DNA from: a virus
DNA length: 64,000 nucleotides
Direction: 5' to 3' (one strand)
Virus record (IMG/VR): IMGVR_UViG_3300023179_000035
Location: 1 to 64,000 of that record
Part shown: positions 9,542 through 48,244 of the stretch, piece after piece
Layout of the letters: each line of letters begins with the position of its first letter
Numbering within the stretch: the first letter of the stretch is position 1
The notes under the pieces: model-generated
Database searches by the model: none
Seen by the model: only the letters and a program-made list of their open reading frames with translations
What the model was told of the DNA's origin: nothing
Program-made: the position numbers and the translations under genes

Positions 9542-9936
9542 TGCCGCGTAGGAAGAAGAGGCGGGGGCACTACCACAGGGGCGAGTACACCTCGTCTAAG
9601 ACGCAGCAGGTCTGCAGGTACAGGTCAGGCTGGGAGCTGTCCCTAATGCAGTACCTGGACTCTGACCCGGCCACGGCCACCTGGTCCTACGAGTCAGTCG
9701 TGATAGAGTACGTCAGCAACGCCAGGACAGGCAAGAAGCGCAGGTACTTCCCCGACTTCTATGTTGAGACAGCCTCGGGAGAGCGCCAGCTCATTGAGGT
9801 GAAGCCGTCAAAGAAGCTCCGCCAGCTGGCGGTGGCCAAGAAGCTGTCTGCTGCAGGAGACTGGTGCAGGGACAACCAGGTGACGCTCAGAATAATAACT
9901 GAGGTGGAGCTGAAGGAGCTTGGGCTTCTGAAGTAG
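9541..9936 (+). CDS. 4: gp4-like head completion nuclease (PD-(D/E)XK, copy 1)
   Basis: The 131-residue protein matches the T4 gp4 head-completion family in length and motif order: basic N-terminus, YRSGWE (E32), W-x-YES, RRYFPDF (D72), then IEVKPSKK (E86, K88), which is the E...PD...ExK nuclease core shared with TnsA-type endonucleases. T4 gp4 acts after packaging, when heads are made competent to join tails. The start codon overlaps the stop of the upstream structural gene. A second member of the same family lies at 35076-35429. Assignment to the fold is strong; which of the two copies does the gp4 job is not decided by sequence. Confidence 0.8.
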   Translation: MPRRKKRRGHYHRGEYTSSKTQQVCRYRSGWELSLMQYLDSDPATATWSYESVVIEYVSNARTGKKRRYFPDFYVETASGERQLIEVKPSKKLRQLAVAKKLSAAGDWCRDNQVTLRIITEVELKELGLLK

Positions 9937-17058: not shown

Positions 17059-17415
17059 ATGCAGCATAGGATTACTTCGACGAGACTTCGCCAGATAATT
17101 TCAGAAGAGGTCAGGCGCTTCTTGGCCGAGGCCGACGGCGAGGCCGAGGTACCAGTAGGCAAGAAGATGGTCCAGGCGGCCCAGGGCATGGTCGAGCTAC
17201 AAGCCGCCCTCAATAAGTTTAGGGACACAAGCCCCGACGCGGCGGCGGCGGTCGACGCACAGCTGGCCGACCTAGAGTCGATACTTGGCACGAAGCTGGA
17301 GCCCCTCGCGTCGCTGGTATCACCTTCACCATCCCCCTCTAAGTTTGCAGGCCCACAGGGGCTGCATTCTCCTCCACATGAGGAAGAGGATGAAGACGAG
17401 GAAGGCGAGTATTAA
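17059..17415 (+). CDS. Small capsid-targeted protein candidate (family member 1)
   Basis: The 118-residue product begins with a short helix TSTRLRQIISEEVRRFLAEADG. The segment TxxLRxIIxEE recurs at the start of five other small ORFs in this window, and FLAE|A (cut after E24) fits the T4 gp21 cleavage rule L/I-x-E before a small residue. T4 internal head proteins carry such N-terminal capsid-targeting sequences that the prohead protease removes. The remainder is acidic and low-complexity, ending in a run of D/E residues. It lies between terminase and portal; ATG follows GCTAGGAGACGACAC. Packaging in the head is inferred. Confidence 0.7.
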   Translation: MQHRITSTRLRQIISEEVRRFLAEADGEAEVPVGKKMVQAAQGMVELQAALNKFRDTSPDAAAAVDAQLADLESILGTKLEPLASLVSPSPSPSKFAGPQGLHSPPHEEEDEDEEGEY

Positions 17416-17473: not shown

Positions 17474-20400
17474 ATGCCACAGAGAGAGTCACAAGAAAGC
17501 TTATTCAGGCGCCTCACCCGTATATTTCGGTCGGGTCCAGCTGTCCACCGCAAGGTGCGGGCTGCTGACACAGGGATAGCCGTCCCAGACAGGACAAAGT
17601 CTTCAGGGGCACTGCTCTTTCAAAAGAGCATGTCCCCGACGTACGCTACTATCACGTCAAACGCTTACAACCTGTCAGAGAGGCTGACGCGGTATCAAGA
17701 CTTCCAAGAGATGGAGTATAGTCTTGATGGTGCTACCAGGATCGCACAACCTGATGGGTACAAGACGATAGAGGAACTGGCGAAAGAGTGCTCTGAAAAC
17801 CCAGGCCACACCTTTGTCGTCTACTCCTACGACCACGAAAAGGGGAAAATTGTTCCTGCGATTGGCAAGCAGGCGAGGCAGACGTGCGTCGACCATGCCT
17901 GGAAAATTACGTTTGAAGACGGCAAATCGATCACGGCTTCAGCAGAGCACCGCCTGATGTTACGCGATGGGACGTACAAGAAAGTAGAGGACATCCAGGT
18001 TGGAGACTCTATGATGCCGTTCTACAGAAAAGACTTGTTTGAAAACTCAGCCAATGGCACTAAGGGTTACAACTGGGTCTATACGCTAGACGGCAGGTTC
18101 AAAGGCTGGACGAAGGAACACCAGCTTGTCGCCGAGTGGATGCTAGGACGCCAGCTCGTCGAAGACGAGGTCGTCCATCACATCAACTTCAACAAAAAAG
18201 ACAACCGCCCAGAGAACCTGAGGGTGATGTCAAAGTTCGACCACAACTCTTTGCACGCTGCGATAAACAACAGCTCCAAGTGGAGCGAAGAGAACACTGC
18301 GTGGGTAGAGAACTTTAAGAAGAACCACGCCGAATGGATGGCCAAGAACGCTCCGACCCGTCGCCGAGACGTGACATTTCCTAAGATAATCCAAGTAGGC
18401 GAGAAGGTCGGGTTCGATATTGGAAAAATCGCTAGCGTCCTCGACGCCTCTACCTACCTGATCCACGAGAGGCTCACCGCCAACGGCTTCTCTACTTTTG
18501 AGTCTTTCAGGAGAGCGTACGAATGCGGCAGCTTAAACGCCGGCGCAGTCGGCCAAAAGATGAGGCTGACGAGAGAAATTAGCCTAGAAGAAATAAAGCA
18601 AAAGGTGGAAGAGTCTGACACCAAACGATCTCTCGCCATCAAGCTCAACTGCACCGTCAATGTCCTAGACAAGTTCCTAGAAAGACGCGTCAACAGTTCT
18701 TGGAACCAAATCAGAAAAGAGTGCGGCCTAGGGCCGTCGAACGAGAACAGCGGAAGGCCAAAAGGAGCCAACAGGCATGGCGTCACTTTCCAAGACGTTT
18801 GCAACGTATACGAAAATGGGATAACGAGGCCAAGGCTGGCCGACAAGCTCAATGTGTCGACGTCAACTGTGACGCAAGTCCTTGCGGCTGTGGGCTTCAA
18901 AAAATACAGCGAATTTGTCGACTCTTACGCTAACCACAGGGTCGTCTCTATCGAGTACTGCGGTGAGATTCCGCTCTATGACCTGACTGTCGACGGCTAC
19001 AAGAACTTCGCGACAGACACCGTCATCTCTCACAACACCGCCGAGATCGCGTCTGCCCTCGACATCTACGCCGACGAGACTGTGGCGCAGGACGACAAGG
19101 GCAGGATACTCCACATCTACTCAGACAACCCAAAGATAAAGTCTCTCCTCGACGACCTGTTCTACAACATCCTCAACGTAGAGTTCAACCTGCGGCCCTG
19201 GGCCCGTAACCTCGTCAAGTTTGGAGACTTTTTCCTCTACAACGACGTGTCCCCCTCCGAGGGCGTCATCAACGCCTTCCCGGTGCCCGTCAACGAGATT
19301 GAGCGGGAAGAGAACTACGACAGGTCTGACCCGTCTGCTGTCAGGTTCCGATGGGTCACCCTGGGCAACAGGGTCCTTGAGAACTGGGAGGTGACGCACA
19401 TGCGCCTCCTCGGCAACGATATGTTCCTGCCCTATGGCTCTTCAGTCATCGAGCCCGCCCGCCGCATCTGGCGACAGCTCATCCTCATTGAGGACGCCAT
19501 GCTAGTGTACCGAGTCGTCAGGGCCCCTGAGAGGCGCGTATTCTATATTGATGTTGGGGGACTTCCCGCGGAGGCTGTTCCTGCATACATTGAAGACCAG
19601 AAGAAGGTCCTGAAGTCCAGCCAGGTCATCGACAGGCAGAGCGGCAGGGTAGACGTACGTTATAACCCAATGTCGGTCGAAGAAGACTACTTCCTCCCAG
19701 TGCGTGGTGGAGAGTCTGGCACCAAGATAGACACCCTTGCCGGCGGGCAGAATGCAGCCGCGGTCGAGGACGTTACTTACATCCAAAAGAAGCTGTTTGC
19801 AGCCCTTAAGATTCCGAAGGCGTACCTCGGCTATGACGAGAGCCTCTCGTCAAAGGCCACACTAGCCCAGGAGGACATAAGGTTCTCTAGGACAGTGTCA
19901 GTCATCCAGAAGACTATCATAGCAGAGCTCAACAAGCTCGCCATCATCCACCTCTACTCCCACGGGTATGACGCCGATGACCTCGTCAACTTCACCCTTA
20001 GGCTGTCTAACCCATCGACTGTGGCACAGATGCAGAAGCTGGAGCTGTGGAAGTCTAAGTTTGAGATTGCTGGCGCATCGCTAGGCGAGGGCATGGCTTC
20101 CAAGACTTTCGCCCGTAAAGAGATACTCGGCCTGACGGACGAGCAGATACAGGAGATAGACGCGCAGAGGTACCAGGAGAAGATAGTCGAGGCCCAGATT
20201 GAGGCAGCCAAGCCCGAGGAGGAGTCAGGCGGCGGCGGTGAGGGAGGCGAAGAGTCTATCAGCGACATCCTCGGTGGTGGTGAGGAGAAGGGTGGCGAAG
20301 AGGGGGAGAAGGGCGGTGGCGAGGAAGAGAAGCCAGCCGAGGAGACGCCTCCCCCTGAGAACGCCGGCGAGGACAGGGACGATGGCCTGGAGCTCCTGAC

Positions 20401-20803
20401 GTCAGACGACTCTGAGCCTGGAAACCTAGAGTTCTCTTCGGCCAAGCCAAAGGGCAGGAAGAGGCCGCCCGTCAAGGTGGCGTCAGCCTCACAGAAAGCC
20501 ATGCAGGATGCAGAGCGTCGGTCTAAGAGGCGTCGCTATGACGGTCCGGCCAAGACGCACATGCCAAACTTCTACAAGATGGCGACGTCCATCGACTCGC
20601 TGAGCGACCCACCAGACATGTCGTGGCTCAGCTCGGCTGCGAAGAATCCATTCTCCGAGGGCAGCGTCGTCAGGCCTACCCTGCCCCCCGACATCGTCAA
20701 AGCCCTCAGGGGAATGTCGGCCCGGAGCGAGCGCAGGACGGGCCTCCTGTCAGAGGACTACGAACTAGACATCACAACGAACGACGAAGGTGAGGAGACA
20801 TGA
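17474..20803 (+). CDS. 20: Portal protein (T4 gp20-like) interrupted by an intein
   Basis: The precursor has 1109 residues. N-extein 1-82 ends ...DFQEMEY; intein 83-521; C-extein 522-1109 begins TAEIASALDIYADETV, which is the conserved gp20 core. The spliced portal would be 670 residues, longer than T4 gp20 (524) because of a C-terminal tail (about 905-1010 of the precursor) rich in Glu and Gly. The portal forms the dodecameric vertex through which DNA is packaged and to which the neck attaches. It lies between terminase and protease as in T4, and its stop overlaps the next ATG (ATGA). Function depends on splicing. Confidence 0.93.
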   Translation: MPQRESQESLFRRLTRIFRSGPAVHRKVRAADTGIAVPDRTKSSGALLFQKSMSPTYATITSNAYNLSERLTRYQDFQEMEYSLDGATRIAQPDGYKTIEELAKECSENPGHTFVVYSYDHEKGKIVPAIGKQARQTCVDHAWKITFEDGKSITASAEHRLMLRDGTYKKVEDIQVGDSMMPFYRKDLFENSANGTKGYNWVYTLDGRFKGWTKEHQLVAEWMLGRQLVEDEVVHHINFNKKDNRPENLRVMSKFDHNSLHAAINNSSKWSEENTAWVENFKKNHAEWMAKNAPTRRRDVTFPKIIQVGEKVGFDIGKIASVLDASTYLIHERLTANGFSTFESFRRAYECGSLNAGAVGQKMRLTREISLEEIKQKVEESDTKRSLAIKLNCTVNVLDKFLERRVNSSWNQIRKECGLGPSNENSGRPKGANRHGVTFQDVCNVYENGITRPRLADKLNVSTSTVTQVLAAVGFKKYSEFVDSYANHRVVSIEYCGEIPLYDLTVDGYKNFATDTVISHNTAEIASALDIYADETVAQDDKGRILHIYSDNPKIKSLLDDLFYNILNVEFNLRPWARNLVKFGDFFLYNDVSPSEGVINAFPVPVNEIEREENYDRSDPSAVRFRWVTLGNRVLENWEVTHMRLLGNDMFLPYGSSVIEPARRIWRQLILIEDAMLVYRVVRAPERRVFYIDVGGLPAEAVPAYIEDQKKVLKSSQVIDRQSGRVDVRYNPMSVEEDYFLPVRGGESGTKIDTLAGGQNAAAVEDVTYIQKKLFAALKIPKAYLGYDESLSSKATLAQEDIRFSRTVSVIQKTIIAELNKLAIIHLYSHGYDADDLVNFTLRLSNPSTVAQMQKLELWKSKFEIAGASLGEGMASKTFARKEILGLTDEQIQEIDAQRYQEKIVEAQIEAAKPEEESGGGGEGGEESISDILGGGEEKGGEEGEKGGGEEEKPAEETPPPENAGEDRDDGLELLTSDDSEPGNLEFSSAKPKGRKRPPVKVASASQKAMQDAERRSKRRRYDGPAKTHMPNFYKMATSIDSLSDPPDMSWLSSAAKNPFSEGSVVRPTLPPDIVKALRGMSARSERRTGLLSEDYELDITTNDEGEET
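17720..19036 (+). mobile_element. Intein with HNH homing endonuclease inside the portal gene
   Basis: This 439-residue in-frame insertion shows all splicing blocks. Block A is SLDGATRIAQPDGYKTIEEL with Ser as first residue instead of the usual Cys. Block B is KSITASAEHRLML. Block F is LYDLTVDGYKNF and block G is VISHN followed by extein Thr. The central endonuclease is of HNH type (VVHHINFNKKDNRPENL, about residues 233-250 of the precursor). It is followed by three helix-turn-helix-like segments of the kind used for target recognition (around 300-350, 365-415, 425-475). Base composition is slightly more AT-rich than the flanking portal. Insertion beside the most conserved portal motif is typical of inteins. 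Confidence 0.92.
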
Positions 20804-22243: not shown

Positions 22244-23233
22244 ATGACAGAGCCGACTGGGTCACTCAACTTTAAGAGTTTTAACTGCGCTACCTGTGGT
22301 GCCTCTTTTGCGAGGTATGTGCCCCCGTCTGACAAGAGCGGAACGAGGACATTCTGTTCTCGTTCCTGTCAGATGAAGGGGACTAGGGCGCTTGACTCAC
22401 GCGTCAAACAGTCTGGAAACGTCACTGCCTGCTGCGAGCTCTGCGGAAGTCAGTTCACCAAATACCACAAGGGCCACATGCCGCTGCCTAGATTCTGCAA
22501 CAGAAGCTGCGCAGCGAAGCACCTCTCCTCGTCTGGCAAGAACGGATTTGCTTCAGCGTCGCAGCTGCCACCTGAGACGCGTCAAAAGATAGCCGAGTCT
22601 CGTCGTCTATCGACTACGCGTAGGAACACGGGCAAGAGGCTCTCTGGTGAGACTCGAAAGAAAATATCAGAGTCCTGCATGGGCAAGTCTAACCCAATTA
22701 AGGGCAAGACATACTCAGAGTACTACGGCGAGGAGAGGGCGACTGAGCTCGCGGAATCACACTCACGTAAGCTAAAAGAAGGATTTAAGGCCGGCAGGAT
22801 AAAGCCGACAGCTAGGACATCGTCTGCTCCTACGTACAAGGGAGTTAAGCTGAGGTCAATGCTAGAGCAGAGCGCCATACAGCTTTTAGAGTCATACGGC
22901 CGCCGGCTTGGCGAAGATATCTTTTATGAAGACGAGAGGACGAGGGTCGAGTGGGTTGGACACGACGGGGCTAGCCACACTTACACCCCTGACATCTACG
23001 ATAGCGTCTCAGGGATCGTGTACGAGGTCAAGCCCGCCTGGCTTGTCAGGAAGCCTACTAGAGAGATGGTCTTAAAAGAAGAGTCAGCCATCCAGCAGCT
23101 GCGCCTTAGGGGCATGACGTTTAGTTACATGACATCAGATGACATTTTATGCGGCGGTCTGAGACATGGGCAGCTACATATTACAGGTGACGCCACGGGG
23201 GTATCATACGCCGATGAAACTAACAAAGTCTGA
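22244..23233 (+). CDS. Free-standing homing endonuclease with zinc fingers, NUMOD3-like repeats and PD-(D/E)XK core
   Basis: The 329-residue product has two treble-clef-like fingers (CATC...CSRSC and CELC...CNRSC), then NUMOD3-like DNA-binding repeats (SGETRKKISESCMGK, GKTYSEYYGEERATE), and a C-terminal nuclease core YTPDIYDS...VYEVKPAW, i.e. PD and ExK. This is the layout of phage homing endonucleases. ATG comes directly after the gp21 stop (TGAATG) and the 3' end runs 20 bases into the next gene, so it has been inserted tightly between two head genes. Codon use is more AT-rich than its neighbours. Activity is inferred; the frame is intact. Confidence 0.8.
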   Translation: MTEPTGSLNFKSFNCATCGASFARYVPPSDKSGTRTFCSRSCQMKGTRALDSRVKQSGNVTACCELCGSQFTKYHKGHMPLPRFCNRSCAAKHLSSSGKNGFASASQLPPETRQKIAESRRLSTTRRNTGKRLSGETRKKISESCMGKSNPIKGKTYSEYYGEERATELAESHSRKLKEGFKAGRIKPTARTSSAPTYKGVKLRSMLEQSAIQLLESYGRRLGEDIFYEDERTRVEWVGHDGASHTYTPDIYDSVSGIVYEVKPAWLVRKPTREMVLKEESAIQQLRLRGMTFSYMTSDDILCGGLRHGQLHITGDATGVSYADETNKV

Positions 23234-28416: not shown

Positions 28417-29880
28417 ATGGCATACGGAACTAACAAATCATGTTTATGCCTCATATGTGACGAACAATTTGATCACATGAAGAAGCTGTCAGAACACATC
28501 AAGAAAATTCACAACCTATCACCGCAGGAATACTACACCAAGTACTTCAATAATAATCTGAGGCCATCCTGCCTCATCTGCGGTGGTGAAACGAGGTACG
28601 TCAGCCTCAGCGAGGGATTCAAAAAATACTGCGCATCGGATGCCAAAGTGGCAGCTTCAATGCTTGGTAGTGCTGGCGGTAAAATTAAAAAAACGTGGAA
28701 CAAGGGAAAGACGAAAGAGGACGACGCTAGGATCCTTGAACAGTCCAAGAAAATGTCTGGGGAGGGAAATCCGTTCTACGGCAAGAAACACTTGCCTGAA
28801 TCAATTAAGCGAAATGCCGATGCGCATAGGTTAAAATTTGATGAAGTAATTGGCAGAGTATCCAGAGAAGTTTCAAGCGTTTCTGTTGTCTCTGGCTGGA
28901 AGAGCTACGAAAGCCAAAATTCTCTCCTCCGCGTTGCATGCAAGAAGTGTTTGCTTGAAGACGACGTGTCGTTTTTCAATTTAATGAGATGCTGGAGATG
29001 CAAGAATTGTGATCCTATTGGATCAAGGCAACAGCTCGACATCTCGAATTACGTTAAGTCTTTTGGTTTTATCGTTGAAGACTCAACAAAGAAAGTTATC
29101 CCTCCCCTCGAGCTGGACGTCTGGATTCCGGAGAAGATGGTTGCTATAGAATATCACGGCCTTTACTGGCACTCAGGAGGGAGAGAATCGACGTTCGACA
29201 AGCGACGTCATAGAAAAAAGTACGAAGCTTGCGCCGCAGCTGGCATTAAACTCATACAAATTTTTTCTGATGAGTGGCGTGACAAAGAGGACATCTGCAA
29301 GTCGATTATAAAGAATGCGCTAGGCAAGAATGACGTAAAGTTGAATGCTAGAGATTGCGTAGTTGAAGATGTTGATGTCACGACAGCACAAAAATTTCTT
29401 AACGACACACACATCTCCGGCTACACGAGGTGCAAGCATAAGTTTGGGCTATTCCATAAGACGCATGGCCTTGTAGGAATTGCGACCACTAGAACACCGA
29501 TCCAAGGAAGATGGGGAAGGTTATCTGAGCTGGCCAGAATGTCATTTGCTAGCGGAGTTTCTGTCCGCGGGGGTGCATCAAAGTTACTCGAAAAGGTAAA
29601 GTCCCAAGCGGTTGTAGAAGGTTTCGAAGGAGTCCTATCCTACGCAGATCTTCGATTCGGCAATGGTGCTGTCTACGAAAAGTGCGGTCTAAAGTATATT
29701 GGAGAATCTACGATTAATTACTGGTACACTGATGGCCATAAACGATTTGACAGATTTGCATTCAAAGCGCAGCCTGGAAAATCTGAGAAGCTGGTGGCAG
29801 ATGAGGCTGGCGTTCGAGCCGTGTGGGGATCAGGTAATAAAATCTACGCGTGGAAACATGATCCTTCAATCTTTCTTTAG
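28417..29880 (+). CDS. Homing endonuclease, Vsr-like core with zinc fingers and C-terminal acyltransferase-like region
   Basis: The 487-residue product has an N-terminal C2H2-like finger (CLICDEQFDHMKKLSEHIKKIH), NUMOD3-like repeats (WNKGKTKEDD, GEGNPFYGKKH), a Cys4 ribbon (CKKC...CKNC), then a Vsr/PD-(D/E)XK-type core: LELDVWIPEKMVAIEYHGLYWHS, and IFSDEWRDKEDI. The C-terminal 200 residues resemble a GNAT-like fold and end with FDRFAFKA...DEAGVRAVWGSG. The same architecture occurs in the genes at 48137-50119 and 50766-52418. It is clearly more AT-rich than neighbouring genes, indicating recent transfer. It sits between the capsid terminator and a fibre gene. Confidence 0.82.
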   Translation: MAYGTNKSCLCLICDEQFDHMKKLSEHIKKIHNLSPQEYYTKYFNNNLRPSCLICGGETRYVSLSEGFKKYCASDAKVAASMLGSAGGKIKKTWNKGKTKEDDARILEQSKKMSGEGNPFYGKKHLPESIKRNADAHRLKFDEVIGRVSREVSSVSVVSGWKSYESQNSLLRVACKKCLLEDDVSFFNLMRCWRCKNCDPIGSRQQLDISNYVKSFGFIVEDSTKKVIPPLELDVWIPEKMVAIEYHGLYWHSGGRESTFDKRRHRKKYEACAAAGIKLIQIFSDEWRDKEDICKSIIKNALGKNDVKLNARDCVVEDVDVTTAQKFLNDTHISGYTRCKHKFGLFHKTHGLVGIATTRTPIQGRWGRLSELARMSFASGVSVRGGASKLLEKVKSQAVVEGFEGVLSYADLRFGNGAVYEKCGLKYIGESTINYWYTDGHKRFDRFAFKAQPGKSEKLVADEAGVRAVWGSGNKIYAWKHDPSIFL

Positions 29881-33555: not shown

Positions 33556-35079
33556 ATGTCAGTCAGCGTCGCCTACGACACAGCTCAGGGGCTGGTGCAG
33601 GTTTCTTCTCTTGGGTCCGCGTCAGTCAGCTTCTCTGGTGCGCAGCTGTCAGCAGATGTCAGGGGCTCTGTCTCAGTCGCTGTCGACTCTGTGGCTGACG
33701 TGTCTGCCTACGATGCGACAAACTTATCTGACGGCGCTGTCTTGTACAGCAAAGACGTCAAGGACTACTGGACACTGTCGCGCTCCTCAACTCTAAACTC
33801 AGACGGCATAACAGTCGTCCTGCCGTCTGACGGCCTAGGCAGGTGGGTCAGGTCATGCATGGGCAACTCAGAATGGGCTCAGCAAAATTTTTGGCACGTT
33901 GACTCAGTCAACGGGTCTGACACTAACGATGGTTTCACATCGGGCTCTGCGCTGAAGACTGGCACGGAGCTGGCTCGGCGACTCAACGGTCAAATTGTAA
34001 GGTTAGACTCAAGCCGTGGCCTCCTCTCCTCTAGCCTTTTTATCCACAATGACATTTTGATGCCCGACGCCCTCTTCCTCGACTTTACGCTAGGGGTCAC
34101 TGGGTCAGCCTCCTCCGCGGAAGACAAGCGAGGTTTTGTGATCCAAGGAGTCCCAAAGACCGTCGCCTCTGGCACGCTGACATCGACTACTGCGATTGAC
34201 AGGGCTACCAACACCCCGGCCTCCATCAATGCAGGCGGCATGGATCTGTCCCCATACATCAAGGGAAATTATAGGCTCAAGTTCTTGAGCGACAATGCCG
34301 TGTGCTACGTCGTCAAGTCCTTGGGCGGAGGATCTTATAGGATCAGCCCCCCTTTGGCGGGCTGGCCTGGCCCAGCCAAGACGCCCAGGACAGCAGGAGA
34401 ACAATTCATAGTAGAATCTTTGCCTGTCGTCGAGAGGACAGCGGGCAGCGTAAGCAATGCTTTTATCTACGCAAGGGACCTTTGTTTTAACCTGTATGAG
34501 CTGTTGATCGCTACCCCAGGAGAAGGCGCTTACGCATCGTACCCATACTGTATCTTCAGCGGGTCGTCGGTCCAAAATATCAATCGAGCGCGGAACGTCT
34601 ACACAAATCCGTGCTTTATAAACGGATTTTCTTCTGCGGCATCGACAGTCAACGTCCAGGGAGGCGCCTCCTTCGGTCCTGTTTCTCTCAGTGAAATGAC
34701 AAGCGCGACTGTCTTTGATGACTTTATCGTGCAGGGAAGCTCTGTGCTGCTAGACACTAATTCCTACGCTGAATTAACATGTGCAGCCGTGTTCGACACG
34801 CCAGGCAACGCAATTACGATTAGAAAAAATTCTTCTGCCCGGCTTCGGGAGACGCCAACGTACGGCGTCTACGGCTCAGGGTCGACCGGCTACGGAATTT
34901 TCTTGGGCAAGGGCACCCAGATCTACCAGTACTCTAACAACTCTTTCAGCACAGTCAAGATAACTGGGTCTCTTGGAGACGTCAACGTTGGCGGCACCGT
35001 CAAGTCTTGGTCAGACTTAGGAACGGCAGGCTACGTCAACACGGGATCTCTCGCTGCGGTGCTGTACGACTATCCATGA
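33556..35079 (+). CDS. Tail spike/fibre protein with shared N-terminal anchor
   Basis: The 507-residue product begins MSVSVAYDTAQGLVQVSS, very like the start of the 1089-residue fibre gene at 52479 (MSISAKYTPGQGLVQFNG), so both probably attach to the virion through the same N-terminal module. After a linker (residues 55-105) comes a beta-rich body (WHVDSVNGSDTNDGFTSGSALKT, a common opening of phage beta-helix spikes), ending with a compact beta segment. No catalytic residues can be assigned. It overlaps the second gp4-like nuclease by 4 bases. Host-range determinant is an inference. Confidence 0.72.
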   Translation: MSVSVAYDTAQGLVQVSSLGSASVSFSGAQLSADVRGSVSVAVDSVADVSAYDATNLSDGAVLYSKDVKDYWTLSRSSTLNSDGITVVLPSDGLGRWVRSCMGNSEWAQQNFWHVDSVNGSDTNDGFTSGSALKTGTELARRLNGQIVRLDSSRGLLSSSLFIHNDILMPDALFLDFTLGVTGSASSAEDKRGFVIQGVPKTVASGTLTSTTAIDRATNTPASINAGGMDLSPYIKGNYRLKFLSDNAVCYVVKSLGGGSYRISPPLAGWPGPAKTPRTAGEQFIVESLPVVERTAGSVSNAFIYARDLCFNLYELLIATPGEGAYASYPYCIFSGSSVQNINRARNVYTNPCFINGFSSAASTVNVQGGASFGPVSLSEMTSATVFDDFIVQGSSVLLDTNSYAELTCAAVFDTPGNAITIRKNSSARLRETPTYGVYGSGSTGYGIFLGKGTQIYQYSNNSFSTVKITGSLGDVNVGGTVKSWSDLGTAGYVNTGSLAAVLYDYP

Positions 35080-35429
35080 GCCGCTGGTCGACAGGAAAGT
35101 ACAGGTCTCGAAAGTCCGGGACCGTCTACGACTACAAGTCCTCGTGGGAGGCGATCTACATGGACATGCTGGACTCGGACCCGGCAGTCGATTCCTGGGA
35201 GTACGAGTCTGTCTGGGTCATGTACCACAACGGCCAGAAGGTCAAGAAGTATCTGCCTGACTTCCTCGTCGCCCTCCGCGGCGGCGGTAGGGTCCTAGTT
35301 GAAGTCAAGCCGGAGAAGCTCCGCGACAACCCGACCAACGCCGCCAAGCGCCTCGCGGTGCAGCAGAAGTGCCGGGAGGAAGGCTGGGTGTACTACGAGT
35401 GGGCCCAGGGGCAACCTGGCCTGCCTTGA
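35076..35429 (+). CDS. gp4-like head completion nuclease (PD-(D/E)XK, copy 2)
   Basis: The 117-residue product shares the motif order of the 9541-9936 gene: SSWE (E25), MLDSDPA, W-x-YES, KYLPDF (D62), LVEVKPEK (E76, K78). These are the TnsA-like nuclease residues. The start at ATG 35076 overlaps the stop of the spike gene (ATGA), mirroring the way copy 1 overlaps a large structural gene. It lacks the very basic N-terminus of copy 1 and ends earlier. It could be the true gp4, a backup, or a nuclease used elsewhere. Followed by the tmRNA. Confidence 0.75.
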   Translation: MSRWSTGKYRSRKSGTVYDYKSSWEAIYMDMLDSDPAVDSWEYESVWVMYHNGQKVKKYLPDFLVALRGGGRVLVEVKPEKLRDNPTNAAKRLAVQQKCREEGWVYYEWAQGQPGLP

Positions 35430-35450
35430 ACAACAGACAGGTTTGGCCGT

Positions 35451-35457
35451 ATACTTA
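35451..35457 (+). promoter_or_regulatory. Candidate late promoter element ATACTTA before tmRNA
   Basis: GTATACTTACAC sits 16 bases before the predicted 5' end of the mature tmRNA, in the right place to drive it. It matches the element repeated in other leaders. Confidence 0.5.
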
Positions 35458-35472
35458 CACTGTCTTTGACAA

Positions 35473-35843
35473 GGGGGCGAAATAGTTTCGACACGGCGGC
35501 GAACGCCGAGCCTGCAGGCGGGGGTGCACGAGGGTCCCCCTTCAAAACCCAAGTGACGTACAGATGCCAACGACAACGGCACCGCTGTTCTCGCCCTCGC
35601 GGCCTGAACAATGGGGTCCTAACACCTAGAAACAGAACGTTAGGAAAACGTCAGGGGACCAGACGTTAACTGGAACGCGTCAAAGTGCTGGACGTAAAAC
35701 GAAGTGCCGTCCGTGGTAGTCTAGGACGCTAAAGTTCGACTGTCTAATCCCGCCTGAGGATGAACAAATAGAAGGCCAAGCCTGTGAAAGATGGCTCGGA
35801 TTTTAAGTCGTGGACCCCGGGGCAGCGCCGGGCGCCTCCACTA
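35473..35843 (+). ncRNA. ssrA: Transfer-messenger RNA (tmRNA), tag ANDNGTAVLALAA
   Basis: The 5' end GGGGGCG-AAATAGTTTCGACA is the conserved tmRNA opening. It pairs with CGCCTCC at 35833-35839, including the G3-U wobble that marks alanine acceptance; the end reads ACTA rather than ACCA. The T-arm stem CCCGG/CCGGG (35816-35820 with 35828-35832) has loop GGCAGCG in place of the usual TTCGANT. The tag frame runs 35566-35604 from resume codon GCC, giving ANDNGTAVLALAA then TGA at 35605-35607; AND and LAA ends match bacterial ClpXP-type tags. It would rescue stalled ribosomes during infection. One-piece form, 368 bases plus CTA. Confidence 0.92.
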
Positions 35844-40600: not shown

Positions 40601-43600
40601 ATGGCCGAGCAGACATTCCGTTCACCTAATTTCTTTGACAGAGAGATAGACCTCTCAGGCAAGGTTCCAACCCCTCCGACCGGGACACCTGCCGGCGTCA
40701 TTGGAACATCCAATAAGGGGCCCGCCTTCGTTCCGGTTACAGTAGGCAACTTTGATGACTTTTCGCTGAAGTTTGGTGGCCTCAACCCAGACCACCCAGC
40801 CGTGTACGCTGTCAACAGGTTCCTAGAGACCAGGCAGTCTCTCACCTTCCTCAAGGTCCTCGGGGCGGGAGCTAACTCCTCGTCAGCAGACTCTGACTAC
40901 ACCAGAACGTACGGCAGGGTCGTCAACGCAGGGTTCACGCTGCCGTCTAGCAACTCAAACGGAGGCGTCTACTTCATATCGACTACCGAGGTCCCGACCG
41001 TCAGCGAGTCGTACGGCTTTCCTATGTTCAATGACAACGACTCCTTCTCTGGCTACGACTCCGTGTCAGGCACACTGGGCTCTGCAGGCATGCAGCTCAT
41101 CAGGGGCATGGTCATGCTGCCTTCGACAGCCAGGCTACTGACGTTTGGGTCGGGCACAAACGTGACTGAGACAGACGTCAACAGCCTCAACAAAGACCAC
41201 ACGTGGCTGGCCGACTCCCCTCTGGATGGTGACGCGGGCCTGGACTACTACTTCAAGCTCGTTATATCCTCTTCAAACTCTGACTTTAAGGCCTACAACA
41301 CGTCAGACGGCATAAAGGGCGTCAAGATATTCAGCGCGTCGCTCAACCCGAGCTCGCCCAACTACATCGGCAAGATACTCAACACTGACTCCAAGAAGTT
41401 CGAGGAGAAGCAGCACTTCCTATACGCTCACTTCCCAATCGACCACCAGGTGTCGTTCCCCGTCTCGGCCTCGCTGCTGTCTGGGACGCAAAACTCTAGC
41501 TTGGTCGACACCAACATCAAGTATAGGGACCTATTTGGTCACTTTGACACCCGCTTCACGACGCCAGCCTCTCCGACGTTCATATCACAGCCCTTCGGCG
41601 ACAAGGAGCACGACCTCTTCCACTTCGAGGCCCTGGACGACGGTGAGTTCGCCAACAAGCTCTACAAGATATCTGTCGCCAACCTCAAGGTGTCAGCTGA
41701 CCCGACGAACCCATACGGAACATTCTCGGTGCAGGTCAGGGACTGGAACGACTCGGACATAACACCTTCCATCCTAGAGCAGTACGATAACTGCGACCTC
41801 AACCCAAGCTCCCCCAACTACGTCGCCAAGCTGATCGGAGACATGCGCAGGTACTTCAACTTTGACGCCTCCACGCTGGCGGAGCGCAGGGTCCTCATAG
41901 ACGGCAACTTTGAGAACGTGTCCAAGCGCGTCAGAGTCGTCATGAACGACGACGTCAAGAACAAGCAGGTCCCGGCCAAGTCGTTGCCCTTCGGCTTCAG
42001 GGGAATGCAGCTCCTCAAGACCGCTGACACCATCAGCGGCATGAGCGGCTCAATCAACGCCGCCGCGACCATCCTGCAGCGTTCTGCCGGGACGGTGTCA
42101 GCCCAGCTACCACCGATACCCTTCAGGGTCAAGCTGACGACGGGCCAGGTTAACATGTCGGGCAGCCTATTTGACACCAGCAAGTACGAGGTCCTGAAGC
42201 CTAGCCTGTACTGGGGTGTCAAGTTCGAGCGCAACACAGACATCCTGAAGGTCAACGAGGTGGTAGAGCGCAACGAGCTGCTCGACAGCTACACCAAGTT
42301 CCTTGGAATACCTGGGCTGATGACCCTGACTGACCAGGACACGGCGGACTCCCTCAACAACAACAAGTTCAGCCTGTCGAGGGTCACCTTCAACGTCACC
42401 AGCCTGGACAACATGACGCAGTCGGCCGAGTTGCACATGCTGAACACAGCCTACATCAGGAACGGCGTTCCTGACCCGAACAGCTACATGATGGTCGACA
42501 CGACGAACAATATCAGCACCCCACACGTCACCCTAGCCTCTCTTGTCAACGCCACAGACAACAGCTACACTAACGGTGTCGTCGCTGCGTCTAACTTCAA
42601 CAGGTTCGCGCAGTACACGAAGTTCACCACGTTCATGTACGGAGGCTTCGACGGCACCAACATCCTCGACAACGACTCGAGGCTCCTCAACGAGAAGTCG
42701 CTGTCTTTCGTTGAGGTCTCCTCTGACGGGTCGGCGGGCGGTGCTTCAAGCATGTATGAGATGCCGGGCTTCCCAGGCTACAACCCGTCAGGAGTCCACG
42801 GCAAGAACGCTTCAGTGATGTCCTACAAGACTGCCGCTGACATCATGACTGACCCATACGCGGTGGCCACCAACATCCTGACGATACCTGGCATCAAGGA
42901 GTCGTTCGTCACAGACTACGCGGCCGAAAAGGTCCGTAGCTACGGCCTGGCCCTCTACGTCATGGACATCACGTCCTACGACGACGACAACAAGGCGATA
43001 TTCGACGGCACCAGGGCCAAGCCAAACATCGAGAACACTGCGGCCCAGTTCGAGCAGCGCAACATGGACAACGACTACGTGGCGACGTACTTCCCCGACG
43101 TGTTCTTGGATGACGCCACCAACCGCCGCCGCGTCAAAGTCCCAGCGTCAGTCGCGGCCCTTAGCGCCCTCGGCTTCAACGACAAGGATACGTTCCCGTG
43201 GTTCGCCCCGGCCGGCTTCAACAGGGCGTCCCTTGACTTCGTCACCAACGTTCAGGTGCGCCTCAACGTCACCGACAGGGACAGGCTGTACGACGCTAAG
43301 ATCAATCCAATCGCGACCTTCCCACGCCAGGGCTTCGTCATCTACGGCCAGAAGACGGTCAAGGCCAAGAAGTCTGCCCTGGACCGCGTCAACGTCCGCC
43401 GGCTGCTCCTCGAGGTCAAGAGGATAATCGGCAACATAGCCACCAACCTGATATTCGAGCAGAACACGCCGGCCCTTCGCAATAAGTTTGTGGCAGACGC
43501 CACCGTCCAGCTGGGCCTCATCCAGGCGCAGGCGGGCATCGAGGCGTCGCAGGTCATCATGAACGAGTCGAACAACACCCAGGACGACGTCGACAACAAC

Positions 43601-43696
43601 AGGCTCAACGGGCGCGTCGTCATAGTGCCGACCCGGTCGATCGAGTTCATCGCCATAGACTTCATAGTCACAAACAGCGGCGTTCAGTTCGTGTGA
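40601..43696 (+). CDS. 18: Tail sheath protein, copy A (T4 gp18-like)
   Basis: The 1031-residue product starts with the sheath signature: FFDREIDLSG, PPTGTPAGVIGTSNKGPAFV, and near the C-terminus RVNVRRLLLEVKRIIGNIA with VIVPTRSIEFIAIDFIVTNS. Sheath subunits form the contractile cylinder that drives the tube through the envelope. T4 gp18 has 659 residues; this protein has about 370 extra, mostly between about 90 and 500, likely surface domains. A second sheath gene follows 49 bases downstream. The leader holds CTATAATTAG at 40561 and GGAGACAACAAG before ATG. Confidence 0.92.
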   Translation: MAEQTFRSPNFFDREIDLSGKVPTPPTGTPAGVIGTSNKGPAFVPVTVGNFDDFSLKFGGLNPDHPAVYAVNRFLETRQSLTFLKVLGAGANSSSADSDYTRTYGRVVNAGFTLPSSNSNGGVYFISTTEVPTVSESYGFPMFNDNDSFSGYDSVSGTLGSAGMQLIRGMVMLPSTARLLTFGSGTNVTETDVNSLNKDHTWLADSPLDGDAGLDYYFKLVISSSNSDFKAYNTSDGIKGVKIFSASLNPSSPNYIGKILNTDSKKFEEKQHFLYAHFPIDHQVSFPVSASLLSGTQNSSLVDTNIKYRDLFGHFDTRFTTPASPTFISQPFGDKEHDLFHFEALDDGEFANKLYKISVANLKVSADPTNPYGTFSVQVRDWNDSDITPSILEQYDNCDLNPSSPNYVAKLIGDMRRYFNFDASTLAERRVLIDGNFENVSKRVRVVMNDDVKNKQVPAKSLPFGFRGMQLLKTADTISGMSGSINAAATILQRSAGTVSAQLPPIPFRVKLTTGQVNMSGSLFDTSKYEVLKPSLYWGVKFERNTDILKVNEVVERNELLDSYTKFLGIPGLMTLTDQDTADSLNNNKFSLSRVTFNVTSLDNMTQSAELHMLNTAYIRNGVPDPNSYMMVDTTNNISTPHVTLASLVNATDNSYTNGVVAASNFNRFAQYTKFTTFMYGGFDGTNILDNDSRLLNEKSLSFVEVSSDGSAGGASSMYEMPGFPGYNPSGVHGKNASVMSYKTAADIMTDPYAVATNILTIPGIKESFVTDYAAEKVRSYGLALYVMDITSYDDDNKAIFDGTRAKPNIENTAAQFEQRNMDNDYVATYFPDVFLDDATNRRRVKVPASVAALSALGFNDKDTFPWFAPAGFNRASLDFVTNVQVRLNVTDRDRLYDAKINPIATFPRQGFVIYGQKTVKAKKSALDRVNVRRLLLEVKRIIGNIATNLIFEQNTPALRNKFVADATVQLGLIQAQAGIEASQVIMNESNNTQDDVDNNRLNGRVVIVPTRSIEFIAIDFIVTNSGVQFV

Positions 43697-43745: not shown

Positions 43746-46700
43746 ATGAGCAGCACTTACAGAGTTAGCCCAGGCGTCACCTCACGTGAGATAGACCTAA
43801 CAGGACCGACTACGACTGGGCCGAGGGGGGTGCCTGCAGGAGTCATAGGCACATCACAGATGGGACCTGCCTTCGTCCCGATCACCGTGGCCAACATCTC
43901 AGAGCTAGAGAACAGGTTCGGTGCCTTTGACAGGACAGAGTTTGGAATCCTGGCCGCCCGTGAGTGGCTGTCCAACGCTCAGGCCCTGACATACCTCAGG
44001 GTGCTGGGCGTTGGGACGGGCGAGATGAGCATGGTCAACGACAACGACTCCCCTGGGTCGGGAGCCGGCAGGGTAAAGTACGCTGGCTTCGTAGTCGGTA
44101 ACAAGCTTCCCGGAGCCGCCCTTGGCGGCACCTCGTGGGGTGACCTGGTCGGTAATCCATACGCTTCAGGTAGCGGCCCTGGCGGCAGGACCTACTTCTT
44201 AGGAGCTTTCATGGGGGCAGACGTCAACGTCGCCTCGGTGGGAGACCAGCTCTTTACAAGCGGCGTCCTCGCTGGCACAGCACCGCAGCCTTTCATCGTA
44301 GGAGTCCTGATGGCTCCAAGCGGGGTCGTCCTGACTCTGTCGTCGACGTACGGCGGTGGAAACTCTGACGTCGCCTCGTCTAACGCTTACCTGCCTAGCG
44401 GGTCAAGTGTTGGAGACGTGGTCCTCAAGAGCCCAGCCTCGACGATGTCTGGGATGAGCCAGTTCGTCATGCTGCTCAACGGGCACGCTACAGGAACGAC
44501 TGCCATAACAGCCTCGTTGTCCAGGAACAGCAACTCCTACTTCGGCTCCACCTTCAACACAGTTCCTACGAAGATGCAGGAGGCCGGTCACTACCTCTAC
44601 GCTGCCTGGGACTACCCAGGCCTGTCTGTGACAGGGTCCAGCCTGATGTCAGGGTCTGTCACCAGCTCTTACTCTAATCCAAAGTACGTTGAGCCTATCG
44701 TCTTCCTGCTGACTGGCTCCAACGACCAGAACCACGTCAGCGCCACGTCACCTAACTACGAGAACTTTGAGACACGCTTCGGCCACGCAGTCACTCCGAT
44801 GGTAGTGTCGCAGCGCATCGGCGGCAAGCCCACTGACCTCTTCCGCCTCCACGCCCTGTCAGACGGCGCCGGCGTCGCGAAGAATTACAAGTTCTCTATC
44901 GAGAATATAACGCCCTCCCCCGACCCTGCCTACCTATACGGCACGTTTGACCTCCTCGTCAGGTCGTGGAATGACACTGACTTTGAGAAGACGGTCTACG
45001 AGAAGTACACGGGCCTGTCGCTCGACCCAACAAACGACAGGTATATCGCCAAGGCGATCGGCGACGTCAACACCTACTACGACTTTGAGCGCGACACAAA
45101 CTCCCAGAAGCTCGTCGTCGAGGGGGACTACAACAACAACTCTAGCATCGTGAGGGTAGAGGTAAGCGACGATGTGTCCCTGGGGCTCGCCGCCGCAGAG
45201 TGCTTGCCGATGGGGTTCAGGGGACTCCCACACCTCGTCACTTCGGGCTCTGCCCTCAAGGTCGACGGCCTAGACCTAGCCGTGACAGGCTCTGGTGTCT
45301 CATCCTTCAGCAGCCTACTGAAGTCTGCCCGGCAGGCTCCGGTTCCGTACGTCCTGTCAATATACAAGGGCCTCAGCACGAAACGCACAGCAGACCCCAA
45401 CAGGTACTGGGGCGTCGCATTCGACCTACCAGTGCTAACAAACGACACAGGCGTCCAGCTGGGGCGCCACAAGAACCAGTTCGTGTCTGACTTCACCAAG
45501 TTCTTCCCACAGTTCATCGTGGGCAATCCCAACTTTGTCGTCGGCGACAATGCTGGTGTGGCTGACGACGTCAACTTCGGGGTGGTGGACGCCGACAGGT
45601 TCAACAACAACCTCTTCACGCTGGAGAACATCGCAGTCGTCACATCGTCCAAGACGCCGCACATGGCCGATCCAAACGCCTGGCAGAACGCTGAGTATAT
45701 GCGCAACGGCATCAAGCCTGCTGACGACCGCAGGATGCTAACCGTCTCTGACCTGACGACAGACAACAAGGGCTACGCCAAGTTCACCTTCGTGATGCAG
45801 GGCGGCTTCGACGGCGTCAACCTGTTCGACGAGCACTCGGCGGCCATCGACGGCGTAGCGGTGGAGTGCGACATGAGGCAGCCCCTACGGCACGACGTCA
45901 ACGGCGCCAACGTCAAGGCCTACACCAAGGCCCTGGACGTCATGAAGAACGTGACCAACGTCGACATACAGCTCCTCGCCATGCCAGGCATCAGGAACAC
46001 ATACGTGACTGACAGGGCCCTGGCCGCCGTCGAGTCCCGGTTCGACGCCATGTACCTGATGGACGTGGAGGCCTACGACCAGGGCGACAACCTCCTGCTA
46101 CCTGGCACGGAGAACTTCATGGACAACGGGCTGCCGGTGGAGAAGGTCGACGTCAGCTACACTGCGCAGAACTTCGCAGACCGCGGCATCAACTCCTCCT
46201 TCGGCGCTGCGTACTTCCCAGACCTCAGGTACGTCCACCCCAGCACTGCCGCTGAGGTCCAGGTACCACCGACTGTGGCTGTCCTCGGGGCCCTGTCCCT
46301 CAACGACAAACTGGGACACCCGTGGTTCGCTCCTGCCGGATACACCCGCGGGGTGCTGCCCAACGTGACAGACCCGACTGTTCCCCTGACAGACGCTGAC
46401 ATGGACAGGCTGTACGACAGGGACGTCAACATGGTCATCAAGAAGGCAGCCCCGGCCGGCACGGTGGTCTGGGGCCAAAAGACGCTGTTGAAGGCCGCCT
46501 CGGCCCTGGACCGCGTCAACGTCCGCCGCCTCTTGATAGAGGTACGACGCCAGGTCAGGGACATCGCCCAGACCATCCTCTTCGAGCCCAACAGGGCCGC
46601 CACCCTGGCCCGTTTCTCTGCTGCCATCACCCCGAGGCTGCAGACCATCCAGCAGCAGGCCGGCCTCGACAGGTTCAAGGTCATCATCGACTCCTCCACA

Positions 46701-46817
46701 ACGACGCAGGCCGACATCGAGAATAACACGGTCCGCGGCAAGATATACCTGCAGCCAACGAAGAGCGTCGAATTCGTGTCCTTGGACTTCGTTGTAACAA
46801 ACAACATCCAGCAGTGA
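43746..46817 (+). CDS. 18: Tail sheath protein, copy B (T4 gp18-like)
   Basis: The 1023-residue product is a clear paralogue of copy A: SREIDLTG, GVPAGVIGTSQMGPAFVPIT, LSLNDKLGHPWFAPAGYTRG, DRVNVRRLLIEVRRQVRDIA and LQPTKSVEFVSLDFVVTNN. The two differ most in the central insertion domains. It begins behind TAGGAGCCACACCAG. Both are full length, so both are probably functional; they may alternate in the sheath, occupy different rings or be alternatives. It is followed by a small head-protein candidate. Confidence 0.92.
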   Translation: MSSTYRVSPGVTSREIDLTGPTTTGPRGVPAGVIGTSQMGPAFVPITVANISELENRFGAFDRTEFGILAAREWLSNAQALTYLRVLGVGTGEMSMVNDNDSPGSGAGRVKYAGFVVGNKLPGAALGGTSWGDLVGNPYASGSGPGGRTYFLGAFMGADVNVASVGDQLFTSGVLAGTAPQPFIVGVLMAPSGVVLTLSSTYGGGNSDVASSNAYLPSGSSVGDVVLKSPASTMSGMSQFVMLLNGHATGTTAITASLSRNSNSYFGSTFNTVPTKMQEAGHYLYAAWDYPGLSVTGSSLMSGSVTSSYSNPKYVEPIVFLLTGSNDQNHVSATSPNYENFETRFGHAVTPMVVSQRIGGKPTDLFRLHALSDGAGVAKNYKFSIENITPSPDPAYLYGTFDLLVRSWNDTDFEKTVYEKYTGLSLDPTNDRYIAKAIGDVNTYYDFERDTNSQKLVVEGDYNNNSSIVRVEVSDDVSLGLAAAECLPMGFRGLPHLVTSGSALKVDGLDLAVTGSGVSSFSSLLKSARQAPVPYVLSIYKGLSTKRTADPNRYWGVAFDLPVLTNDTGVQLGRHKNQFVSDFTKFFPQFIVGNPNFVVGDNAGVADDVNFGVVDADRFNNNLFTLENIAVVTSSKTPHMADPNAWQNAEYMRNGIKPADDRRMLTVSDLTTDNKGYAKFTFVMQGGFDGVNLFDEHSAAIDGVAVECDMRQPLRHDVNGANVKAYTKALDVMKNVTNVDIQLLAMPGIRNTYVTDRALAAVESRFDAMYLMDVEAYDQGDNLLLPGTENFMDNGLPVEKVDVSYTAQNFADRGINSSFGAAYFPDLRYVHPSTAAEVQVPPTVAVLGALSLNDKLGHPWFAPAGYTRGVLPNVTDPTVPLTDADMDRLYDRDVNMVIKKAAPAGTVVWGQKTLLKAASALDRVNVRRLLIEVRRQVRDIAQTILFEPNRAATLARFSAAITPRLQTIQQQAGLDRFKVIIDSSTTTQADIENNTVRGKIYLQPTKSVEFVSLDFVVTNNIQQ

Positions 46818-47315: not shown

Positions 47316-47459
47316 ATGATACGACCTGACACATTCCTCCGCCGCGTCATTCGTGAAGAGGCCAAGAGGGTCCTACACCCCAGCCATTTCGTGTGGGGCT
47401 CGTCCAGATGGGCTGCGGGACTGACCCCGCCCAGAACCTGGAGAGGGCTGTCGAGCTGA
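47316..47459 (+). CDS. Short ORF with capsid-targeting-like N-terminus (family member 6)
   Basis: The frame reads MIRPDTFLRRVIREEAKRVL and continues in a different frame from the amidase for another 27 codons to TGA at 47457. The first 20 residues match the helix shared by five other small proteins (LRRVIREEA). The rest overlaps the amidase and is probably not selected as protein. Either it is a leader for coupling, or ribosomes shift by -1 and fuse this tag to the amidase, whose frame is open back to 47357. No canonical slippery heptamer is seen. Confidence 0.45.
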   Translation: MIRPDTFLRRVIREEAKRVLHPSHFVWGSSRWAAGLTPPRTWRGLSS

Positions 47460-48244
47460 CGCGTGAGGCAGCCCGGCTAGGCGCCAACGTCGTGTGTCAC
47501 CAGGAGCTGTTCCTGACGCAGTACTTCTGTCGCGTCCAGGACCCCCGTTCCTTTGGCCTGGCCGAGAGCGTTCCAGGCCCCACGACGGGTGCCATGAGTC
47601 GCCTCGCCAGGGAGCTGGGCGTCGTCATCGTGGTCCCTCTCTTCGAGAGGGCCGGCGCCCGCTTCTACGACACGGCTGTCATCATTGACGCTGACGGCTC
47701 CCTGGCGGGCAAGTACCGCAAGACGCACCTGCCGGAGGAGCCGCTGTACCACGAGAAGTTCTACTTCTCCCCTGGAGACCTTGGGTTTAGGGCCCACGAC
47801 ACACGGTTCGGTCGTATCGGCGTGCTCGTCTGTTGGGACCAGTGGTTCCCAGAGGCGGCCCGCCTGACTGCCCTGGACGGGGCAGACGTGCTGCTGTACC
47901 CCACAGCTATCGGGTGGAGCTCTGCTGACAGGGACCAGTACGGGGAGGCTGACCTGTCTGCCTGGGAGACAGTGCAGCGGGGCCACGCCATCTCTAACGG
48001 CGTCTATGTCGTGGCCGCCAACCGGACAGGGAGAGAGGGTCCACCAGGGCAAGACATCCAATTCTGGGGCTCGTCTTTCGCTGTCGACCCACACGGGCGG
48101 GTGGTGGCCAGGGCCTCCAGGGACGGCCAGGGGGTTTTAGTCGTTGACATCGACCCCTGGGAGGTCGCTGAGGCCCAACGACAGTGGCCCTTCTTTCGGG
48201 ACAGGCGGGTGGACGCCTACGGCGGGCTGGTTGGCGGCAGGTGA
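47393..48244 (+). CDS. aguB: N-carbamoylputrescine amidohydrolase-like nitrilase (AguB-like)
   Basis: The 283-residue product has the nitrilase triad E38 (HQELF), K110 (GKYRKTHLPEEP) and C147 (GVLVCWDQWFPEAAR). The surrounding sequence (YHEKFYFSPGDLGF, YPTAIGW) is that of N-carbamoylputrescine amidases, which make putrescine, CO2 and ammonia in the agmatine route. Polyamines neutralise packaged DNA, so the gene may support packaging. It starts with GTG 47393 with no Shine-Dalgarno and no upstream ATG in frame, giving VGLVQMG where homologues have K-V-A-L-V-Q-M. The 3' end overlaps an antisense endonuclease by 108 bases. GC-rich like its neighbours. Confidence 0.85.
   Translation: MGLVQMGCGTDPAQNLERAVELTREAARLGANVVCHQELFLTQYFCRVQDPRSFGLAESVPGPTTGAMSRLARELGVVIVVPLFERAGARFYDTAVIIDADGSLAGKYRKTHLPEEPLYHEKFYFSPGDLGFRAHDTRFGRIGVLVCWDQWFPEAARLTALDGADVLLYPTAIGWSSADRDQYGEADLSAWETVQRGHAISNGVYVVAANRTGREGPPGQDIQFWGSSFAVDPHGRVVARASRDGQGVLVVDIDPWEVAEAQRQWPFFRDRRVDAYGGLVGGR

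Follow-up and report, generated by a model that had tools for sequence, protein, structure and literature searches.

A one-piece tmRNA gene with an alternative, compensated D-loop/T-loop elbow in a T4-like phage genome

Genomic context

The DNA considered here is a stretch of 64,000 nucleotides (the window) from the 116-kb record of a T4-like myovirus, in which a tmRNA gene lies between head and neck genes. Its T4-like neighbours include the terminase (PF03237), the portal gp20 (PF07230), the major head protein (phrog_138) and the tail sheath (phrog_23), and the tmRNA occupies the gap between a TnsA/endonuclease-like gene (35007-35429) and the neck module. Judged by the capsid protein, even the nearest isolates are distant (52% identity at most); their hosts include Rhodothermus, Flavobacterium and Microcystis. 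Searches of the phage record turned up neither SmpB nor a CCA-adding enzyme domain, so the tmRNA would depend on host factors.

Several other features of this region were noted. The gene at 35007-35429 has a related TnsA/phage-endonuclease-like gene at 9541-9936 (40% identity) and homologues near the tmRNA in loci L170 and L207. An intein carrying an HNH endonuclease (PF14890, PF13392) splits the T4-like portal gene (17474-20803), and homing/HNH endonuclease genes are found at 28417-29880 and 22244-23233, adjoining the capsid gene and upstream (phrog_3339). Small proteins at 17059, 23211, 35869 and 46839 share a start like MKITxxQLRxIIKEE and diverge afterwards; this start may be a shared segment for targeting or scaffolding. 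Two neighbouring genes of about 1,000 codons (40601-43696 and 43746-46817) begin alike; the first encodes the tail sheath (phrog_23) and the second looks like its paralogue. An unexpected metabolic enzyme, a carbon-nitrogen hydrolase (PF00795, E 6.7e-64), is encoded among the tail genes at 47393-48244.

Structure of the tmRNA gene

The gene (ssrA, 371 nt) extends over 35473-35843 on the + strand, as do all the parts described below. A sequence-only reading of this DNA had proposed a complete, phage-encoded one-piece tmRNA with exactly these coordinates and had suggested a covariance model as a check; Rfam returned an end-to-end match to RF00023 (model positions 1-374 of 374, 64.2 bits, E 9.3e-23) above the gathering score of 47 bits, as expected of a standard-form tmRNA. 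It is the sole RNA that Rfam finds in the window and the sole tmRNA of the entire 116,394-base record, and homologues are present in ten related phage loci. The same reading called full phage tmRNAs known but uncommon, in agreement with a survey that found a tmRNA in 402 of 18,146 phage genomes (2.3%) (PMC9004378).

The acceptor stem is formed by GGGGGCG (35473-35479) and CGCCTCC (35833-35839), which pair at seven of seven positions and include the G3-U alanine identity pair, followed by the discriminator A and an encoded tail that reads CTA rather than CCA (3' strand with tail, 35833-35843); CTA also occurs in L207 and the tail is variable among the relatives. The D-loop segment AAATAGTTTCGAC (35480-35492) carries A 35484 and G 35485 where most one-piece tmRNAs have GG (G13 and G14 in Escherichia coli). 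Helix 2a (35492-35497 with 35807-35812) keeps six of six pairs in all eight aligned sequences with changes on both sides, and helix 2d (35514-35519 with 35780-35785) appears as GCAGGC/GCCTGT, GCATGC/GCATGT and GCAAGC/GCTTGT. Pseudoknot 1 (35520-35550) lies upstream of the tag, and both of its helices (35520-35524/35536-35540 and 35532-35535/35547-35550) show compensatory changes. The tag reading frame, GCC...GCC TGA (35566-35607), opens with the alanine resume codon GCC at 35566, encodes ANDNGTAVLALAA with a degradation-type C-terminus and closes in frame with TGA at 35605-35607, within helix 5 (35586-35610; TGTTC/GAACA, TCCTC/GAGGA in relatives). The T-arm (35816-35832) has a perfect stem, CCCGG/CCGGG, and the loop GGCAGCG (35821-35827), with G at position 55 (35822) and C56 (35823), and it covaries with the D-loop. 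Acceptor, tag, T-stem, loop and tail thus all read in the sequence as had been described.

The canonical T-loop TTCRANT, typical of tmRNAs and optional, is absent here; it is also lacking in permuted tmRNAs and in five other distinct one-piece phage tmRNAs, which nevertheless score above the Rfam cut-off. The gene is not circularly permuted with the acceptor piece first, since the 5' acceptor strand precedes the tag and the T-arm stands at the 3' end, and its match is to RF00023 instead of RF01849 or RF04321. A promoter-like site was likewise indicated by the earlier reading. TTGAAC-18-TATACT (35426-35455, with TATACT at 35450-35455) is a candidate sigma-70-like promoter by consensus match only, agreeing at 9 of 12 positions; three such sites occur in the 700-base region vs 0.1 in shuffles, and the site is not conserved among relatives.

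The fold was examined in an alignment of eight members over 38 pairs, comprising the acceptor, helices 2a and 2d, both helices of pseudoknot 1, helix 5 and the T-stem. Standard pairing was found in 93.3% of the cells, and the covariation score was 0.314 vs 0.143 in shuffles (0/500 as high) and at most 0.117 in slid controls. For pseudoknots 2 to 4, complementary strands are present in the window and the alignment across relatives is weak. Single-sequence energy folding, with a model that cannot represent pseudoknots, gave a non-significant z of -1.33.

Related loci and inheritance

A search of IMG/VR with the capsid protein gave 80 loci, and the tmRNA-bearing relatives were drawn from these, from pattern hits, and from L179 and L207. 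The homologous one-piece tmRNA of the ten related loci lies downstream of the capsid gene wherever the contig includes it. Of 46 loci that either had a match or extended far enough downstream, the tmRNA is present in 11 (the window counted) and absent in 35; in whole-record searches, 3 of 40 related records exceeded the Rfam cut-off. On the capsid tree, tmRNA presence costs 3 changes vs 9.3 with shuffled labels, and thus the gene appears to be mostly inherited, with gains or losses. Unlike the capsid protein, neither the tail sheath nor the 33556-35079 reading frame retrieved relatives when used as a query, and a similarity search of a phage collection with the tmRNA or its surrounding 20 kb gave no matches. 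A pattern search of a genome collection for the clade motif immediately 5' of the tag found it in no bacterial genome contig.

The tags of the relatives are ANDNGTAPLALAA, ANDNGIAPLALAA, ANDNGVAPLALAA, ANDNDIAPLALAA, ANDNDVAPLALAA, ANDNGIADDEVRIAA, ANDNGFADDVRLAA and ANDNGIADYALVA, and their ends keep A-A or V-A. The suggested possibility of redirecting rescued proteins by means of the tag is unsupported: the ALAA end is that of ordinary degradation tags, and the relatives preserve the same kind of ending. Most relatives have the T-loop TTCGATT. One clade member (L113, 14149-14517) has ATCATTC, and ARAGORN places its tag start 10 residues early.

Coupling of the D-loop and the T-loop

In the usual elbow, the GG of the D-loop contacts the UUC of the T-loop through G18-U55 and G19-C56 (G13-U342 and G14-C343 in E. 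coli). Among the fetched loci, most one-piece tmRNAs combine a D-loop ..GGTTTCGAC with a T-loop TTC, and the window combines ..AGTTTCGAC with GGC, so that the elbow has passed from GG/UUC to AG/GGC. C56 belongs to both designs; G19-C56 is retained, G18-U55 becomes A18-G55, and U54/A58 is replaced by G54/G58. With GG in the T-loop, m5U54 and pseudouridine 55 cannot form.

The elbow was tabulated for every collected tmRNA with a recognisable acceptor, G3-U and T-stem, counting distinct types. In one of the 5' search patterns used, the D-loop position could be A or G and the T-loop was unconstrained. The 35 distinct one-piece types divide without mixture: AG goes with xGC in 6/6, GG with xUC in 29/29, and mixed combinations number 0. 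Among the permuted types, from which 11 loci with a D-loop one base longer were left out, 20 are AG/xGC, 4 are GG/xUC and one is an exception. The Fisher P values of this coupling overstate its significance because related sequences are non-independent. The exceptional locus (L218, 6346-6689) is a permuted beta-type tmRNA that has AG in the D-loop with the T-loop TTCGATT.

SmpB binds at the tmRNA elbow, and the pair tested by Barends in 2002 was reportedly G13-U342. Contacts between the D-loop and the T-loop are needed for SmpB (review PMC3968760, citing Barends 2002). In a comparative study, the mitochondrial tmRNA of Reclinomonas had GG at these T-loop positions and Caulobacter a G at U342 (PMC1168896). 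The AG/GGC elbow is found outside this phage group as well: the phage Phrappuccino and the contigs L002, L031 and L209 have it in one-piece tmRNAs.

An unusual T-loop, a CTA tail and a Rfam score below those of the relatives (64 vs 81-125 bits; 70 bits in L207) might be read as signs of a decaying or decoy tmRNA, for instance one that titrates SmpB, as has been proposed for the truncated form of DS6A (PMC4131195). However, the tag frame is full with a degradation-type end, pseudoknot 1 and helices 2 and 5 are intact with compensatory changes, the elbow change is coupled, and relatives retain the homologous gene, which together make decay or decoy function very unlikely. As judged from the sequences compared, the odd T-loop is one half of a compensated two-loop tertiary swap and not a product of decay. 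The sequence-only reading was right that the loop is non-standard and reads GGCAGCG; it overlooked the compensation in the D-loop, the likeness to alphaproteobacterial two-piece tmRNAs and the recurrence among unrelated phages. Directly observed here are the gene and its fold, the conservation of the gene and the two-loop coupling. The tmRNA class itself is known already; the novelty lies in this elbow combination, which has appeared in phages repeatedly and in coupled form.

Origin of the alternative elbow

The relative L207, with 89% identity to the window in the C-terminal part of the capsid protein, has the same D-loop, the T-loop GGCGGTA and the CTA tail. Its T-stem differs from that of the window yet is complementary, and its acceptor sequence differs too. 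A tree of the tmRNA body (ends removed), although small and mostly unresolved, requires two elbow-type changes and rejects a window + L207 clade (p-AU 0.003). Since body-only trees reject the two as sisters, the coupled switch probably occurred at least two times in this phage group, as far as sequence comparison can tell.

The same locus bears on two other accounts of the T-arm. A sequencing or assembly error might be considered, as the record is a single metagenome-derived one and most relatives read TTCGATT; with a stem that is still perfect, a D-loop altered to match and L207 showing the same elbow and CTA tail in another sample, such an error is extremely improbable. On the other hand, recombination with the ssrA of an alphaproteobacterial host might recently have supplied the 3' end, which would make the gene a chimera with a phage body and a host T-arm. 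Capture is attractive from the alpha-type T-arm: the 32-base 3' end of the window is only three bases off L178-type permuted tmRNAs, and the alphaproteobacterial ssrA of L198 (RF01849, 310 bits) has the same 5' GGGGGCGAAATAG as well as a GGCGGTA loop. It would require both distant ends to be exchanged with the body staying phage-like, however, and the exact T-arm of the window is present in none of the contigs of the genome collection. L207 carries the same elbow on another stem and acceptor, and the mycobacteriophage Phrappuccino has it too, so that the elbow is no marker of host lineage. Given L207 and Phrappuccino, capture was set aside as unlikely, and the coupled switch within the phage gene is the reading preferred here.

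Detection by gene finders

ARAGORN, also suggested as a check by the earlier reading, reported no tmRNA and no tRNA in the window. It found 9/9 of the GG one-piece relatives tested and 0/8 of the AG/GGC one-piece loci (six distinct sequences); because all eight of the latter were missed, its silence is a blind spot of the program and not evidence against the gene. Rfam found 6/6 distinct AG/GGC one-piece tmRNAs, at 63.6 to 94.0 bits. A recent tmRNA database has as its main route ARAGORN plus BLAST against known references (PMC11915505). As the AG/GGC class is missed by ARAGORN and found by Rfam, ARAGORN-based counts of phage tmRNAs are probably too low.

Two isolate genomes carry tmRNAs of related interest. 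That of Phrappuccino (NC_054727; L200 123-533, about 8127-8537) scores 66.8 bits with RF00023 and has the T-loop GGCAGTG; the record has no tmRNA feature there, the gp10 annotation spans the tmRNA 3' end, and the gene is also present in L228. In Rhodobacter phage RcRudolph (OP009285; L201 439-803), an alpha-type permuted tmRNA (RF01849, 94.8 bits) lies under a hypothetical-protein annotation.

Known systems, proposed function and significance

The gene shares with standard one-piece bacterial tmRNAs (RF00023) the acceptor G3-U, helix 2, pseudoknot 1, the resume alanine codon, the ALAA tag, helix 5 and the T-arm, and differs from them in having an AG/GGC instead of a GG/UUC elbow, an encoded CTA and a phage location. 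Alphaproteobacterial two-piece tmRNAs (RF01849, RF04321) have the same elbow solution (D-loop AAATAG, T-loop GGCRGTA), whereas circular permutation and cutting into two RNAs set their genes apart from that of the window, which is one-piece with a body of standard form. The tmRNA of Phrappuccino is likewise one-piece, phage-borne and missed by ARAGORN, with AACTAGTTTCGAC and GGCAGTG, although that phage and its tmRNA body are unrelated to those described here. Methylophage Melnitz also encodes a complete tmRNA of uncertain benefit, which, unlike that of the window, is two-piece and permuted, is linked to a glutamine riboswitch and belongs to a phage of a marine OM43 host (PMC9004378).

This is a real phage tmRNA of standard form, probably functional with host SmpB. 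Very likely, a one-piece tmRNA with an alternative, compensated elbow is expressed during infection by this T4-like phage and serves ribosome rescue and tagging with host factors. What follows on expression, on the role of host SmpB, on tagging and on any gain for the phage is inferred. The phage would express the 371-nt tmRNA during infection, host AlaRS would charge it with alanine, and host SmpB and EF-Tu would bind it; given the encoded CTA tail, the host must rebuild CCA. The tmRNA would then enter and release stalled ribosomes, and the rescued proteins would gain the degradation tag A-ANDNGTAVLALAA. The phage may benefit by clearing ribosomes that stall upon degradation of host mRNA, and the gain may come either from the ribosomes recycled or from the breakdown of unfinished proteins.

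More tentatively, and with some doubt, one-piece phage tmRNAs might flip repeatedly between the compatible elbows G18-U55 and A18-G55, possibly fitting the SmpB of new hosts or escaping T-loop modification; the A-G class would then have been left out of surveys because it is invisible to the main gene finder, and phage tmRNAs undercounted. With both elbows on RNAs that are alike in other respects, this phage group offers a natural experiment in how the contact with SmpB is specified and in whether phages adjust it to their hosts.
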